Shown here piece by piece: positions 1,502 to 35,219 of a stretch of DNA of 64,000 bases. Source of the DNA: Litorimonas cladophorae. GTDB lineage: Bacteria > Pseudomonadota > Alphaproteobacteria > Caulobacterales > Maricaulaceae. The translations under genes were made by a program, and so were the position numbers. Location of the stretch: NCBI RefSeq assembly GCF_014652455.1, contig NZ_BMYV01000001.1:372001-436000 (forward strand), written 5' to 3'. The notes below the pieces were generated by a model, which saw only the letters and a list, made by a program, of their open reading frames with translations, was not told where the DNA came from and did no database searches. Numbering within the stretch: position 1 is the stretch's first letter; each line of letters starts with the position of its first letter.

Positions 1502-1813
1502 TGAGCAGTGTCGTCCATTCTACATTCGCCAAGCTCTATGCTTGACCTCTCGAAGACGTATTCTCGTAATAAACTTCAAGAGTCAGAGTGAATCCTAGTA
1601 AAAGTCAGCTAATTTTAAGTTAGCTGCAGGATCTGCTTTATGAAACTGTATGAGAATTCCGAGCGCCCCATGATCTCTTTTTTGGGATGCCAAGGCCTTC
1701 GCTCACACCCTCACGGCCCGATTAGGCCGATCTATCCTTTTTATGTTAAATAAAATATTCAGGCGGTTCAAAGCTTTATGAGCAATTTTGAGAGAATGAT
1801 CCTCGCTTTCAAA

Positions 1814-1835
1814 ACCTGTGATAACTTACACAGGT
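1814..1835 (+). other. Perfect 7-bp hairpin at the 5' edge of element A
   Basis: ACCTGTG (1814-1820) and CACAGGT (1829-1835) pair perfectly around an 8-nt loop. The hairpin ends where the sequence shared with element B begins (1833). It is not shared with element B, so it could be a flanking or regulatory structure rather than part of the element. Confidence 0.4.
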
Positions 1836-2132
1836 TCTTTCGGACAGGGGACAGGGTAGCGCTCTCTATCTCGTTCGGAGGACGGTGGGTCTGAGCGTTT
1901 TGGTGTGAGAACCAAAATGGTGCCGGGACTTTTAGAGCGAGCGCACGACATTGCGTGTCCGGGTCTGGTAGGCAGGCTCCGACGTGTAACTATGACCAGC
2001 CGTTACCGTTCTATCAAAAACCATTGCCGCGTGGCCTAGCACTTAAGCGAAAGCTTGAATGCGGGGTATTTGCGTAAAACAACATTTTTATTCTGGTATT
2101 CCATCGCGAATATCGGCCACGCGGGCAGTCCC
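1833..2132 (+). ncRNA. Element A: structured RNA candidate, copy 1 of an unrecognised repeat family
   Basis: This 300-nt noncoding segment is homologous to the minus strand of 34564-34917. The shared 5' motif GGTTCTTTCGGACA (1833-1846), then GGGACAGG, starts abruptly. Proposed helices are: closing GGGAC with GTCCC (2128-2132); CCGCGTGG (2027-2034) with CCACGCGG (2117-2124); a hairpin AAGC-GAAA-GCTT (2045-2056) that extends outward on both sides; and TATTC (2097-2101) with GAATA (2108-2112), which is TACTC/GAGTA in the other copy, a compensatory change. A variable middle part contains TTTTGGT/ACCAAAA and a helix of GCGCTCTCTA with TAGA-gc-GAGCGC. Five T residues follow the closing helix (2133-2137). 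I do not recognise the family; transcription is not shown. Confidence 0.65.
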
Positions 2133-2137
2133 TTTTT

Positions 2138-2290
2138 ATGAGACATCGCACTTCGGCAGTTCCCCCTGAAATATGGCGATGGGCTGTGGGCGTAGGCGCT
2201 TGTTTGAAAATATGATGCCTGTATTCGGTTTCGACTGCTGGCCCATGAGTGAGACAGCGTCGCCGCTTAGTTGATTTTGCGAAAGGCAAA
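2138..2290 (+). other. Intergenic remainder between element A and the rpmF leader
   Basis: No convincing gene. A hairpin of CATCGC (around 2144) with GCGATG (around 2176) carries TTCCCC in its loop. The minus-strand flank just past element B has a similar hairpin with TTCCCC in the loop, so this piece may be a 3' extension of the element. A short minus-strand reading frame crossing this stretch and element A has no recognisable protein character and is left out. Confidence 0.3.
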
Positions 2291-30936: not shown

Positions 30937-31172
30937 GCAGTGATTCACGGTGTTTTGATTTGAGAAAAATGCAAGAAATCTCTGTTTTTTATGGTTAATT
31001 TCCACAAAATTGATTTCACCCCACCTCTTTGCAACGTCGGATTGTCGTGGCGTCATGGCCGGTATCTCACTGTGAGTATCGACTGAAGTGACGTCTGCTA
31101 ATTTTTACTGGTGCCATCTTCCATCATTGGCTTTGCCTTGCACTTTGCCCTTTGACCTCTAAACCGCACTTT

Positions 31173-32393
31173 ATGAACGATAAGGCAGACATGATCATCG
31201 TCGGAGCGGGCCTTTCGGGCTTGTTGACGGCGTGGCGCTGCCTTGATGTAAACCCCAATCTAACAGTTCAAATTCTCGAAGCTTCTGAGCGCATCGGCGG
31301 GGATCATACTTGGTCTTTCAACCTCACCGATGTGTCCGAGGAATTGCGGGATTGGATAAAACCTTTCATCGCCCATCAATGGGACCGATATGATGTGAAA
31401 TTCCCAAAGCGAAAGCGTATCTTGGATATTCCCTATTGTACGGGGAATAGCGACACGTTGCGGGCCTGTGTGCAGCCGCATATCGACAGAGGACGGTTGC
31501 GGGTTTTGTTGAATACATCGGTTGAGGATATTTCTCCTGAATTTGTGGTTTTAAAGAGTGGTGAAAAACTGACGGCAACCTGCGTGTTAGATGCACGGGG
31601 TTTCGAGCTGAATGACGATGTATTTCTTGGTTATCAAAAATTCGTCGGCCACGTCATCAAAACCAAAACGCCGCATGGTGTTGAACGCCCCATCATTATG
31701 GACGCTACGGTTCCGCAGCTAGGTGGTTATCGCTTTGTCTATTGCTTGCCTTATTCTGAGACTGAACTCCTTGTTGAAGACACGTATTACACCGACGGCC
31801 CCGAATTGCAGAGCCAAGAGGTCGATGCGCGCATTAAGGACTATATCAGAGATCGCTTGAGCGTGGATCATTATGAGGTGATTAGGCGAGAGACGGGCGT
31901 TTTGCCGATTACTTTGGCTAACGATGTTCACCCTCATGCATATTTGAAAACTTCCACTAAAATAGGTATTCGTGGTGGATTTTATCACGCAGTGACAGGT
32001 TATAGCTTCCCAGATGCATTGGACCTTGCATACTGGACTGCGTGGGAATTTGAGACTGCACGAGAGACAAATTTCCCAATGGATGGTGAGCAGATGAAGT
32101 TTAATGTTGGCCTTCTGAAGAAGGTCAAAAAGAGAAACGAACGCTTCCTCCGTCTCCTTAACCGTATGCTCTTCCGCGCCGCAAAGCCCACCGAACGCTA
32201 CGCTGTCCTCCAACGGTTTTACGGTCTGAACCAAGGTTTGATCGAGCGGTTTTATGCCGGCACGCTGACGCGCCGCGACAAAGCGCGCATCCTCATCGGA
32301 AAGCCGCCCGTGCCCGTACTAAAGGCGTTGTATAATTTCAGCGAGACCGCTTTTATCAAGCGCGAACGCGCTAAACGAGAATCATCTAAATGA
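31173..32393 (+). CDS. crtY: Lycopene beta-cyclase (CrtY family)
   Basis: A 406-residue FAD/NAD-dependent cyclase with the dinucleotide motif IIVGAGLSGLLTAW near the N-terminus and the CrtY block SERIGGDHTWSF. It converts the open ends of lycopene to beta-ionone rings, giving beta-carotene. The ATG at 31173 is chosen over an in-frame TTG at 31152; neither has a clear ribosome-binding site. The stop overlaps the crtI start (ATGA). About 240 bp free of genes separate it from the upstream terminator. Confidence 0.92.
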   Translation: MNDKADMIIVGAGLSGLLTAWRCLDVNPNLTVQILEASERIGGDHTWSFNLTDVSEELRDWIKPFIAHQWDRYDVKFPKRKRILDIPYCTGNSDTLRACVQPHIDRGRLRVLLNTSVEDISPEFVVLKSGEKLTATCVLDARGFELNDDVFLGYQKFVGHVIKTKTPHGVERPIIMDATVPQLGGYRFVYCLPYSETELLVEDTYYTDGPELQSQEVDARIKDYIRDRLSVDHYEVIRRETGVLPITLANDVHPHAYLKTSTKIGIRGGFYHAVTGYSFPDALDLAYWTAWEFETARETNFPMDGEQMKFNVGLLKKVKKRNERFLRLLNRMLFRAAKPTERYAVLQRFYGLNQGLIERFYAGTLTRRDKARILIGKPPVPVLKALYNFSETAFIKRERAKRESSK

Positions 32394-33940
32394 CTGAAAC
32401 CATGATACGCCCCACCGCCATTGTTGTCGGCGCAGGCTTCGGCGGCATCGCGCTCGCCATTCGCCTTCAAGCGATGGGCTTCCAAACGACGCTTTTGGAC
32501 AACCGCGATAAGCCAGGGGGACGCGCTTATGTGTACGAGAAGGGCGGCTTCAAATTTGATGGTGGTCCAACCGTCATTACTGATCCCGATTGTTTGCGGG
32601 AGCTGTTCGAAGTTTCGGGCAAGGAGATGGATGATTACGTCACATTACTGCCCGTCGATCCGTTCTATCGCTTGCAATGGGAAGACGGCGAAGTCCTGGA
32701 TTATAATAACGACCAAGACTTCCTTGAGCAGCAAATCGCGAGCCGCAATCCTGATGATGTGGCGGGCTACCGCAAATTCCTTGCCTATTCCCAAGAGCTT
32801 TACCGCGAAGGCTATGAGAAGCTCGGAACGACGGCTTTCTTGAAAATGAGCCAGATGTTCGCCGCCGCGCCGCAACTTGTACGCCTGCGCGCTGACCGTA
32901 GTGTTTATGCCCAAGTTTCCAAATTCGTGAAGGATGAGAAGACGCGCCAGCTCCTCTCGTTCCAATCGCTTCTCGTGGGCGGTAATCCCTTTGCGACCTC
33001 TGCGATATACGGCTTGATCCATGCGCTGGAACGCAAGGGCGGCGTATGGTTTGCCAAAGGCGGCACGGGCGCTTTGGTGTCTGGTCTGATCAGCTTGTTC
33101 AAAGATATTGGCGGCGAGGTTCGTTTGAACGCCGAAGTCACTGATATTCATACCGAAGGCGACCGCGTCACGGGTGTCACAACGGCCGATGGCTGGACGA
33201 TGAATGCCGATATGGTCGCGTCCAATGCCGATGTCGTCCACACTTACAAACAGTTGCTTCGGAAGCATAAGCGCGGCCAGAAATACGGCAAGGCCCTGAC
33301 AAAGAAACGTCATTCCATGTCGCTCTTTGTGATTTATTTCGGTCTCGATATTCCGACGCCAGAGCATTTGAAACATCACATCATTCTGTTCGGCCAACGG
33401 TATAAGGAACTGATCGCCGAAATCTTTGGGAAGGGCGGCAAGCTCTCTGACGATTTCTCGCTTTACCTCCACGCGCCGAGCGTCACGGATTCTACGATGT
33501 CGCCCGAAGGCAAGTCTGCCTATTACGTACTCGCGCCTGTCCCGCATCTGGGCAGCGCCGATCTGGATTGGGACGAAATCGGGCCCGCTTATGCGCAAAA
33601 GATTCTCGACTATCTCGAAGTCCACGCCATTCCAGGTTTGAATGATCATCTTGAGGTCATGCACACGCTGACGCCTTTCGGCTTCCGTGATGAGATGAAC
33701 AGCCATTTGGGCAGTGCCTTTTCGGTTGAACCGATTTTGACGCAATCGGCGTGGTTCCGTCCGCATAACCGCGACGACGTCATTTCCAATTTGTATGTGA
33801 CAGGCGCTGGTACACATCCTGGTGCAGGAGTTCCGGGCGTCGTGGGTGCGGCGAAAGCGACGGCGGGGGTCGTTGCAGATGATTTTGCAGGCGAGCTGTC
33901 GAAAGTTAAAGCTGTTGCTGACTGGCCTGCCAATACATAG
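32390..33940 (+). CDS. crtI: Phytoene desaturase (CrtI)
   Basis: A 516-residue flavoprotein with the N-terminal FAD motif VVGAGFGGIALAIRLQ followed by GGRAYVYEKGGFKFDGGPT, and the C-terminal bacterial phytoene desaturase signature ending TGAGTHPGAGVPGV. It performs the four desaturations from phytoene to lycopene. It is translationally coupled to crtY. GC content and codon regularity are high; a long frame on the opposite strand is a by-product of this. Confidence 0.96.
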   Translation: MTETMIRPTAIVVGAGFGGIALAIRLQAMGFQTTLLDNRDKPGGRAYVYEKGGFKFDGGPTVITDPDCLRELFEVSGKEMDDYVTLLPVDPFYRLQWEDGEVLDYNNDQDFLEQQIASRNPDDVAGYRKFLAYSQELYREGYEKLGTTAFLKMSQMFAAAPQLVRLRADRSVYAQVSKFVKDEKTRQLLSFQSLLVGGNPFATSAIYGLIHALERKGGVWFAKGGTGALVSGLISLFKDIGGEVRLNAEVTDIHTEGDRVTGVTTADGWTMNADMVASNADVVHTYKQLLRKHKRGQKYGKALTKKRHSMSLFVIYFGLDIPTPEHLKHHIILFGQRYKELIAEIFGKGGKLSDDFSLYLHAPSVTDSTMSPEGKSAYYVLAPVPHLGSADLDWDEIGPAYAQKILDYLEVHAIPGLNDHLEVMHTLTPFGFRDEMNSHLGSAFSVEPILTQSAWFRPHNRDDVISNLYVTGAGTHPGAGVPGVVGAAKATAGVVADDFAGELSKVKAVADWPANT

Positions 33941-34500: not shown

Positions 34501-34522
34501 CGGCAGGCGAAAACGTCTGCCG
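34501..34522 (+). terminator. Strong hairpin after the DUF1993 gene
   Basis: CGGCAGGCG and CGTCTGCCG form a 9-bp stem (one G-U pair) around an AAAA loop, 12 bp after the stop of the DUF1993 gene. No T-run follows on either strand. It may protect the crtYI mRNA 3' end. It also lies 41 bp beyond the end of element B. Confidence 0.45.
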
Positions 34523-34563
34523 TCCATCTGGGGAACGGCGGGTTTTGCGTTACCCGGTAAGGT

Positions 34564-34917
34564 GGGACGTCCGCGTGGCCAATACTCGCGACGGAGTACC
34601 GAAATAGAAAAATGTTTTACTCAAGTATGGATGTGTATGCGCTTGCTAGGCGAACACACACTGCATTCAAGCTGACGCTTAATTGCAGGACCACGCGGCA
34701 GTGTTTCTCGGGTAGCGGCCTCACTGGATTGCCCCCGTTCCAGGGGGTAAGGCACGCGCTACTCGGCCCCTCTGCACATGCATTACCAAATGCAGCTAGG
34801 CACACCGTCTTTCGGACGAGCTAGTGCAATTTACCGAAGGTAAAATGCACCAGTGCGATGTTTTTACAAACACTACACAGTCAATGATCACTTGCCTGTC
34901 CCGTGTCCGAAAGAACC
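34564..34917 (-). ncRNA. Element B: structured RNA candidate, copy 2 of an unrecognised repeat family
   Basis: Read on the minus strand from 34917, this 354-nt segment begins with GGTTCTTTCGGACA and GGGACAGG, as element A does, and ends with the same domain: CCGCGTGG (34698-34691) paired with CCACGCGG (34578-34571), the AAGC-GTCA-GCTT hairpin, TACTC/GAGTA in place of TATTC/GAATA, and closing GGGAC/GTCCC (34902-34898 with 34568-34564). Its middle part differs in sequence but is also highly paired: a 10-bp helix (34708-34717 with 34757-34766) encloses an 8-bp hairpin (34729-34736 with 34743-34750). Another hairpin with one mismatch spans 34824-34850. It sits between the DUF1993 and peroxidase genes. 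No family is recognised. Confidence 0.65.
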
Positions 34918-35219
34918 ATTTAAACATAGAGCCGAAATTAAAGGCGCGGATACGAAATTCACGAAAAGATCTCGAAGATTTTTCTGTGTCCGGCGAGTTT
35001 CCGCTAAGTCCCTTAAACATATCGATAATTTCGACTGAGAACTCATATAACTATGTTGTGCGTGGAAGGGAAAACCCGCGTTTTAATGAGGATTGATCTC
35101 GAGGAACACGGTATAACCTGTCGGATTCTTAAGCCACGTTACCGCATATTCATTGGTAACGTTTCTGTGATACCGCCAATTCAAACTGGAAGATGTGGCT
35201 AAGAGATCGATTCCTAAAT
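34918..35219 (+). other. AT-rich intergenic stretch before the peroxidase gene
   Basis: About 300 bp in which I see no supportable gene. Short overlapping frames exist in two registers across 34824-35096 but have no family character and overlap element B. The 5' side may hold the promoter of element B (minus strand), and the 3' side the promoter of the lipoprotein peroxidase gene. Confidence 0.4.

Follow-up and report, generated by a model that had tools for sequence, protein, structure and literature searches.

The window, i.e. the whole stretch of 64,000 nucleotides of the Litorimonas cladophorae genome analysed here, contains on opposite strands two copies of a predicted structured RNA element. 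Copy 1 lies upstream of the rpmF-eno genes and points in the same direction, and copy 2 is convergent with a gene coding for a DUF1993 protein. Both copies consist of a shared 5′ block followed by a 3′ domain in the same order, and inspection of the sequence confirmed this description and the positions given for it in the initial annotation. By its assigned ends copy 2 is about 45 nt longer than copy 1, owing to extra hairpins, and each copy folds more stably than all of 100 shuffled versions of itself (z = -2.89 and -5.98, respectively). The features are as follows.

1799 to 1827, plus strand: promoter-like region of copy 1, with a -35-like ATCCTC (1799-1804), a 17-nt spacer and a -10-like TAACTT (1822-1827)
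1833 to 2205, plus strand: copy 1 of the RNA element, inferred transcript of about 373 nt, its start placed by the promoter-like spacing and its end where conservation stops
1836 to 1882, plus strand: long-range helix P1 of copy 1, 1836-1844 pairing with 1874-1882
1848 to 2132, plus strand: outer helix of copy 1, GGGAC (1848-1852) with GTCCC (2128-2132)
1858 to 1863, plus strand: loop hexamer AGCGCT of copy 1, a predicted kissing loop from the palindrome survey
2027 to 2124, plus strand: 3′ domain of copy 1, CCGCGTGG (2027-2034) with CCACGCGG (2117-2124), and a variable hairpin
2072 to 2081, plus strand: conserved GCGTAAAACA in the inner part of this 3′ domain, which also has alternative helices with 2106-2114
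2178 to 2205, plus strand: 3′ tail of copy 1, including a final small hairpin, after which conservation ends
34501 to 34917, minus strand: copy 2 of the RNA element, inferred transcript of about 417 nt with extra hairpins, the end of the tail being assigned by sequence analogy to other tails
34885 to 34890, minus strand: loop hexamer TGATCA of copy 2
34923 to 34951, minus strand: promoter-like region of copy 2, with a -35-like ATCCGC (34951-34946) and a -10-like TATGTT (34928-34923)

The window also harbours carotenoid genes at 31149-33940, as assigned by Pfam, namely a lycopene cyclase (PF05834) followed by a flavin amine oxidoreductase (PF01593) that is perhaps a phytoene desaturase.

With respect to copy number, the initial annotation had proposed a multi-copy dispersed structured RNA on the basis of two copies. 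The genome of L. cladophorae in fact holds about 41, and the further homologues that were looked for, with covariation, were found both in this genome and in the genus. Additions to that annotation are the 3′ tail, helix P1, the promoter-like region and the palindromic loop hexamer. The 5′ block (23 bases, up to three mismatches) occurs at 40 places in the 3.02-Mb genome, 19 forward and 21 reverse, compared to none for the reversed control pattern, and a covariance model of the 3′ domain likewise finds 40 places at E ≤ 1e-3, so that chance is excluded. A BLAST search with copy 1 against the same genome gave 63 matching pieces at E ≤ 10. The figure of about 41 is made up of the 40 places with a 5′ block and one additional copy with a diverged 5′ block (L288), which was found by the covariance model; of 43 anchors listed two are not element-like, and pieces without a 5′ block, e.g. 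L022 and L036, are excluded from the count.

Amongst the 17 other genomes of the Hellea-like genus (Hellea being placed in the Maricaulales, Robiginitomaculaceae, in the NCBI taxonomy), the 5′ block is present in eight, at 13 to 45 places each. With 150 candidates per genome scored, the 3′-domain model matches 12 of the 17 at 1 to 44 places each, including a single weak match in G007 (E 2.8e-5), and finds no match in the other five. Three of the matching genomes show the 3′ domain without the 5′ pattern, with 35 places in G004, 8 in G003 and 7 in G015. Beyond the genus, 131 genomes yielded three single matches to the 5′ block with three mismatches each (G035, G085, G108), which were set aside, and one match to the reversed control (G034), and 288 other genomes of the class, searched with stricter filters, yielded one weak model match (G307, E 1.5e-3). 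Among the matches listed in a scan of assembled contigs, 79 of 80 come from Caulobacterales or Hellea assemblies and one from Actinomyces (L225), which is a chance match. Copy 2 had no match by blastn in 50,697 phage records nor in a search of plasmid DNA, and the exact 5′-block pattern was not found in viral contigs.

The rpmF-eno region is 82-89% identical to that of L. cladophorae in the six other 5′-block genomes with a match, compared to 75-78% in eight genomes without the 5′ block. This fits a single clade carrying the common form of the element; G003, G004 and G015, which carry the diverged form, fall among the 75-78% group. In five assemblies (G005, G008, G009, G011, G016) several copies are found at most about 160 bases from the edge of a contig, for which reason the element repeats probably break short-read assemblies, and the copy numbers there may be underestimates.

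A common layout is found in the 40 upstream regions: ATCCNC (-34 to -29) and TAnnTT (-11 to -6), separated by a 17-nt spacer. C is invariant at -31 and -29, as is T at -6, and A occupies -10 in 39 of the 40. The mean information amounts to 0.6-1.2 bits per base from -50 to -1, 0.2-0.3 from -100 to -51 and about zero before -110, and by eye the same layout is also seen in the diverged genomes G003, G004 and G015. All 13 exact matches of the 14-base promoter core AGAATGATCCCCGC in the L. cladophorae genome lie just upstream of elements, as do 21 of 25 matches with up to one mismatch and 27 of 52 with up to two. The core would thus appear to belong mainly to the RNA family, its exclusivity being unproven because the 25 off-element matches at up to two mismatches exceed the 16 in the reversed control. 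Two off-element matches in the window, at 31297 and 31861, lie inside the lycopene cyclase gene and were treated as chance rather than as promoters, and the sequence fetched around another (C1:87597, L289) contains no element. At C3:115871 and C1:1200290 of G000, the off-element match precedes the core of a genuine copy by 55-65 bases, as though the promoter region were present twice.

On the element strand of copy 1, neither a sigma-70 consensus match in the promoter-like region nor an intrinsic terminator was found. The promoter of the ECF11 (RpoE-ChrR) type, TGATCC-N16-CGTA, was considered and rejected: TGATCC is common at -36 to -31 in the copies of L. cladophorae, but positions -14 to -11 mostly read TGnT and not CGTA. 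In its common form the inferred RNA starts with GGTTCTTTCGGACANGGGACAGG. Visual inspection shows a dyad, for instance AACCTGTG-N8-CACAGGTT, that spans this start in one class of promoters (1814-1837 in the window, and many copies in the same genome), its place being taken in the other class by CCCCTATGTTTAAAT or a similar sequence; the dyad could be an operator, or could let an RNA started further upstream pair with its own 5′ end. At the other end of the element, a loose tail pattern (up to three mismatches of 12) is present in 34 of 39 tails of the L. cladophorae genome, some of them doubtful. The tail ends in a small variable hairpin, and information reaches background about 28 nt past the tail start.

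Evidence that these sequences represent a new structured RNA family is strong as far as the predicted structure is concerned. Helix P1 joins bases +4 to +12 to a partner strand located 40-100 nt further 3′, usually directly ahead of a CGG or CAG, and 98 of 100 copies pair at 8-9 of the 9 positions when the partner is taken as the best G-U-tolerant match, a choice that favours G-U over A-C. The two exceptions are L283 and L097, the latter being truncated at the edge of its contig. Both strands of P1 have changed in the diverged genomes, e.g. TCTTTTCAC with GTGAAGGGA and TCGGCTCAC with GTGAGTTGA. The mean of 8.71 paired positions compares with 7.65 of 9 for strands taken from other types; this difference is modest, since sliding is allowed in the search and a pyrimidine-rich start is common to the strands. 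The outer GGGAC/GTCCC helix of the initial annotation recurs as GGGGC/GCCCC in copies of G004, and for its CCGCGTGG/CCACGCGG helix of the 3′ domain the covariation is strong. In the covariance alignment of the 3′ domain, which comprises the 70 of 79 sources matched at E ≤ 1e-3 (the nine others were dropped) and is itself fitted to the model, 91.0% of the cells are paired and 13 of 16 pairs have changed on both sides. Slid versions are 30-48% paired, and none of 500 shuffles was as good, although related copies are not independent and shuffle counts are not probabilities. In a MAFFT alignment of 25 copies, 9 of the 16 pairs have changed on both sides.

For the TATTC/GAATA hairpin, the compensatory change first noted between the two window copies is borne out by further co-changes (4 of 7 pairs changed on both sides, 84.6% of cells paired in 25 copies). 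The hairpin is not, however, the only candidate pairing of these bases: its 3′ arm has a competing partner in the strand directly before GTAAAACA, where both sides have changed in 2 of 6 pairs and 95.3% of cells are paired in the same set of 25, i.e. the copies without the variable hairpin. Measured as the mean longest run in 73 copies (75 minus L134 and L138, which have no readable core), the competing helix reaches 6.36 compared to 5.03 in the shuffled control, and the hairpin 6.12 compared to 4.90. On these alignments the TATTC/GAATA hairpin appears as one of two competing pairings between which the data do not choose, and a switch between the two 3′ helices, perhaps on dimerisation, is possible.

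Directly after GGGACAGG follows a hairpin whose loop hexamer equals its own reverse complement. A survey of 145 distinct copies (146 sequences distinct in their first 60 nt, minus the Actinomyces match, whose removal reduces the G-U-tolerant loops from 23 to 22) found 121 perfect palindromes, 22 loops that are self-complementary if G-U is tolerated, one of which (L235) resembles a damaged loop, and two with neither (L122, L283). Thirteen perfect hexamers occur, most commonly GAGCTC (25), GACGTC (23), AGCGCT (20), AGGCCT (18), CGATCG (9), TGATCA (8) and GTATAC (7), and more rarely ACGCGT and GTGCAC (3 each), GGCGCC (2), and GTCGAC, ACTAGT and ACATGT (1 each); the tetramers at their centres represent 11 of the 16 palindromic ones that can exist. 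The common imperfect hexamers GGGCCT (14), TGATCG (4) and GACGTT (3) are one G-U step off a perfect one. By a similar count, a perfect hexamer is found in 118 of 146 loops, compared to 28 of 438 neighbouring windows of the same shape.

Only one of 81 copies contains its own hexamer again within the same 300 nt, compared to 31 of 495 for other hexamers of the family, and because recurrence is this rare no intramolecular partner explains the hexamer. In folds of short segments of the same number of copies with the hexamer held open, it lies in a loop of 6-8 nt in 67 and of 9-15 nt in 13, and is unclosed in one. At the centre of a palindrome, moreover, the bases are adjacent and unable to pair within one chain. 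Since the self-complementary hexamer rarely recurs in the same molecule, the sequences predict a symmetric kissing loop between two RNAs of one class, and the sequence evidence for such an intermolecular loop is very strong.

Comparison of flanks shows that some of the copies occupy corresponding sites in different species. In a comparison that took in part of the sites of the L. cladophorae genome, 31 of 79 copies from other assemblies (the Actinomyces match included) have a flank that matches the flank of a copy in L. cladophorae, four of them over less than 200 bases. The content of these sites is often different: of 19 chosen shared-site pairs, several of which share one L. cladophorae copy, 18 were readable, and the loop class was the same in three and different in 15. 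The DUF1993 gene beside copy 2 is matched in 8 of 18 genomes, five of which carry a copy convergent with its 3′ end, and five species present five loops at this locus, namely TGATCA in L. cladophorae and GAGCTC, TGATCG, GACGTC and AGCGCT elsewhere. The flanks fetched for this locus contain no 5′ block in G003 and G015, and the G016 contig breaks off close to the gene. In G002 a stretch of the 3′ domain is repeated beside the copy at the DUF1993 locus (L297). The rpmF-eno site is occupied in five genomes, with AGCGCT in four and GAGCTC in one; a search with the 5′ pattern found no copy there in G016 and G002, and in G002 the site holds a remnant resembling the 3′ domain (L149).

Within the L. 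cladophorae genome, loop class and 3′-helix class are combined in many ways. Six of its copies (L038, L047, L048, L049, L054, L055) have a distinct and nearly identical middle module (GTGAAA...GACTGGTTTGACAGC...), which may be read as a sign of recent exchange, and gene conversion between copies is probably the simplest cause of the changing content. In G004 a second repeat, roughly GTCATCCCG(C/G)AC...GATGCGGGACCTCTT, was seen by eye downstream of several copies (L270-L282) and looks like a separate palindromic dispersed repeat.

In line with the initial annotation, which did not recognise a known RNA in the element, Rfam gave no match to it above threshold in the window or in seven diverged loci. 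At gathering level none was found in the element in the window; up to E 10 the lone match around copy 1 is to a snoRNA model at 2352-2428, outside the copy (E 6.3), and there is none around copy 2; up to E 1 the seven diverged loci gave one tRNA, a true positive, and three sub-threshold matches to miRNA or snoRNA models. RNase P RNA, tmRNA, 6S RNA, SRP RNA, group I and II introns and HEARO were rejected as candidates, with neither an Rfam match to the element nor a tRNA or tmRNA predicted by ARAGORN, and membership in the OLE, ROOL or GOLLD families was rejected in turn as their Rfam covariance models do not match the element. The setting of ROOL and GOLLD in phages or prophages near tRNA islands was not encountered either, there being no match in the phage and viral searches and no tRNA gene in the window; one copy in G004 (L270) does lie near a tRNA.

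The element nevertheless shares with OLE, ROOL and GOLLD, as far as they are described in PMC12286853, that it is a structured bacterial RNA with a predicted symmetric, self-complementary kissing loop that switches between palindromes, here read from sequence alone. According to that source, OLE forms a homodimer and ROOL and GOLLD form RNA nanocages, the L9.3 palindrome of OLE switches from GGCC to GAUC or AGCU across homologues, and both palindrome switching and the argument from adjacent bases at the palindrome centre were used to support the view that the loops of OLE and GOLLD pair between molecules (PMC12286853). The element differs from the three families in its size of about 350-450 nt, its approximately 41 chromosomal copies in one genome, the lack of an Rfam match, 13 perfect variants of its hexamer in one genus with several per genome, and the absence of matches in phage (blastn, copy 2) or viral (exact 5′ pattern) searches. 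A second parallel is the dimerisation initiation site (DIS) of HIV-1, a hairpin whose palindromic loop starts the dimerisation of the retroviral RNA as described in PMC7357161; the comparison concerns the way of working and claims no homology, and unlike in HIV-1 several palindromes exist side by side in one genome.

Taken together, we consider it probable that the copies are dispersed genes for trans-acting RNAs that homodimerise in separate specificity classes. Each copy would probably be transcribed from a dedicated promoter, with TAnnTT as a -10-like sequence and an unusual conserved ATCCNC in the place of the -35 element. The resulting RNA of about 350-450 nt would adopt a closed fold consisting of the long-range 5′ helix, the outer GGGAC/GTCCC helix and variable middle modules, the 3′ domain with the conserved GUAAAACA and, finally, the tail hairpin. 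The hairpin at the 5′ end would expose the self-complementary hexamer, by which molecules of the same class may join in a symmetric kissing loop, and as the hexamers differ among copies pairing would be confined to members of one class. The functional state is probably the dimer, which would act in trans and perhaps offers two GUAAAACA sites to a protein. The copies would hold fairly stable places in the chromosome and, probably by gene conversion, trade content with one another. Copy number, covarying structure, self-complementary loops, the conservation of the promoter-like regions and the differing content of shared loci can be read from the sequences themselves; transcription, cellular dimerisation, class specificity, action in trans and gene conversion are the parts of this mechanism that we infer.

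Alternatively, the element might be a selfish, non-autonomous mobile RNA (SINE- or retro-like), whose fold and dimerisation would serve its spread and whose mosaics would arise by template switching between paired RNAs. We regard this as unlikely, albeit worth weighing: the copies are many, dispersed and intergenic, their modules are mosaic, their distribution is patchy within one genus, and a palindromic dimer loop is a retroviral device (PMC7357161). However, of the two mobilisers searched for, the reverse transcriptase domain RVT_1 is absent from the L. cladophorae genome, which is rated 100% complete, and Y1 (RAYT-type) transposases are found in none of the 18 genomes of the genus, compared to 5 of 14 control genomes. 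In addition, the copied unit includes the promoter-like region, although this precedes the inferred start of the RNA, and some sites are common to several species, as the 31 flank matches indicate. RVT_1 is present in 6 of the 18 genomes of the genus, i.e. in 5 of 13 with 3′-domain matches and 1 of 5 without. The more specific candidates were rejected for the same two absences, namely a retroelement (group II intron, retron or SINE-like) for want of RVT_1 in this genome, and a REP/BIME or RAYT-mobilised repeat for want of the cognate Y1 transposase in the genus. REP/BIME and MITEs are dispersed bacterial repeats that are multi-copy, intergenic and structured. The element resembles them in these three respects; a related class, the 'mobile/repeat sequence candidates' of PMC11109978, is defined there by several copies in a genome and by frequent ties to transposases and the like. 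The element differs from such repeats in its own promoter-like region, its strand-specific RNA structure, the lack of a Y1 transposase in the genus and sites common to several species.

It is very improbable that the element acts at the level of DNA, i.e. that palindromes and repeats are sites for a recombinase, a restriction enzyme or DNA-binding proteins and the RNA folds are incidental. The hexamers are also palindromes in DNA and the content differs at shared loci, but the thirteen hexamers have no common recognition sequence, and departures from the perfect palindrome are mostly (22 of 24) self-complementary through G-U. Furthermore, G-U exceeds A-C in the same helices, with 143 G-U and 36 A-C of 1042 cells in the 3′ helices and 191 and 0 of 882 cells in P1, the latter being the more biased figure owing to the G-U-tolerant choice of partner. 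Read on the opposite strand, the G-U cells would fail to pair, so that the sense RNA looks like the selected strand.

That the element is a cis-acting leader or attenuator of neighbouring genes, as the position of copy 1 upstream of and in the same direction as rpmF-eno, a site occupied in five genomes, might suggest, is scarcely credible given that neighbours differ, that the next gene has the same orientation in 7 and the opposite orientation in 7 of the 14 loci parsed (16 others were unparsed), and that copy 2 is convergent with the DUF1993 gene. The neighbours include, by Pfam, genes for DUF1993, DUF1697 and a di-haem peroxidase, and, by reading of translations rather than by family search, typA-like, asd-like and pyrB-like genes; a protein partner sought among them yielded ordinary genes that are different from copy to copy.

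RNA homo-oligomers are rare in nature, and little is understood of what they do. No earlier description of the family was found in the open-access literature, and we know of no precedent for a family of RNA genes that is present in tens of copies in a genome and has diversified its self-recognition. While the principle of the kissing loop is already known, a paralogous gene family that diversifies its kissing loops would, to our knowledge, be a new aspect; on a stricter reading, the family could be a variant of homo-oligomeric structured RNAs.

A further-reaching proposal, which we put forward tentatively and rate as less than probable, is that of a genome-wide code of RNA self-recognition, in which the products of dozens of paralogous RNA genes each join others of their kind through one of many palindromic loop 'passwords' that are reshuffled at fixed loci as species diverge. 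If true, it would resemble systems of diversified recognition such as allorecognition or incompatibility groups, built from RNA alone. The approximately 41 copies behind a common promoter-like region imply a regulator and a cellular role, and a single genus offers well over 100 natural variants of one predicted dimer interface, which let one ask whether RNA-RNA self-recognition is selected, and for what.
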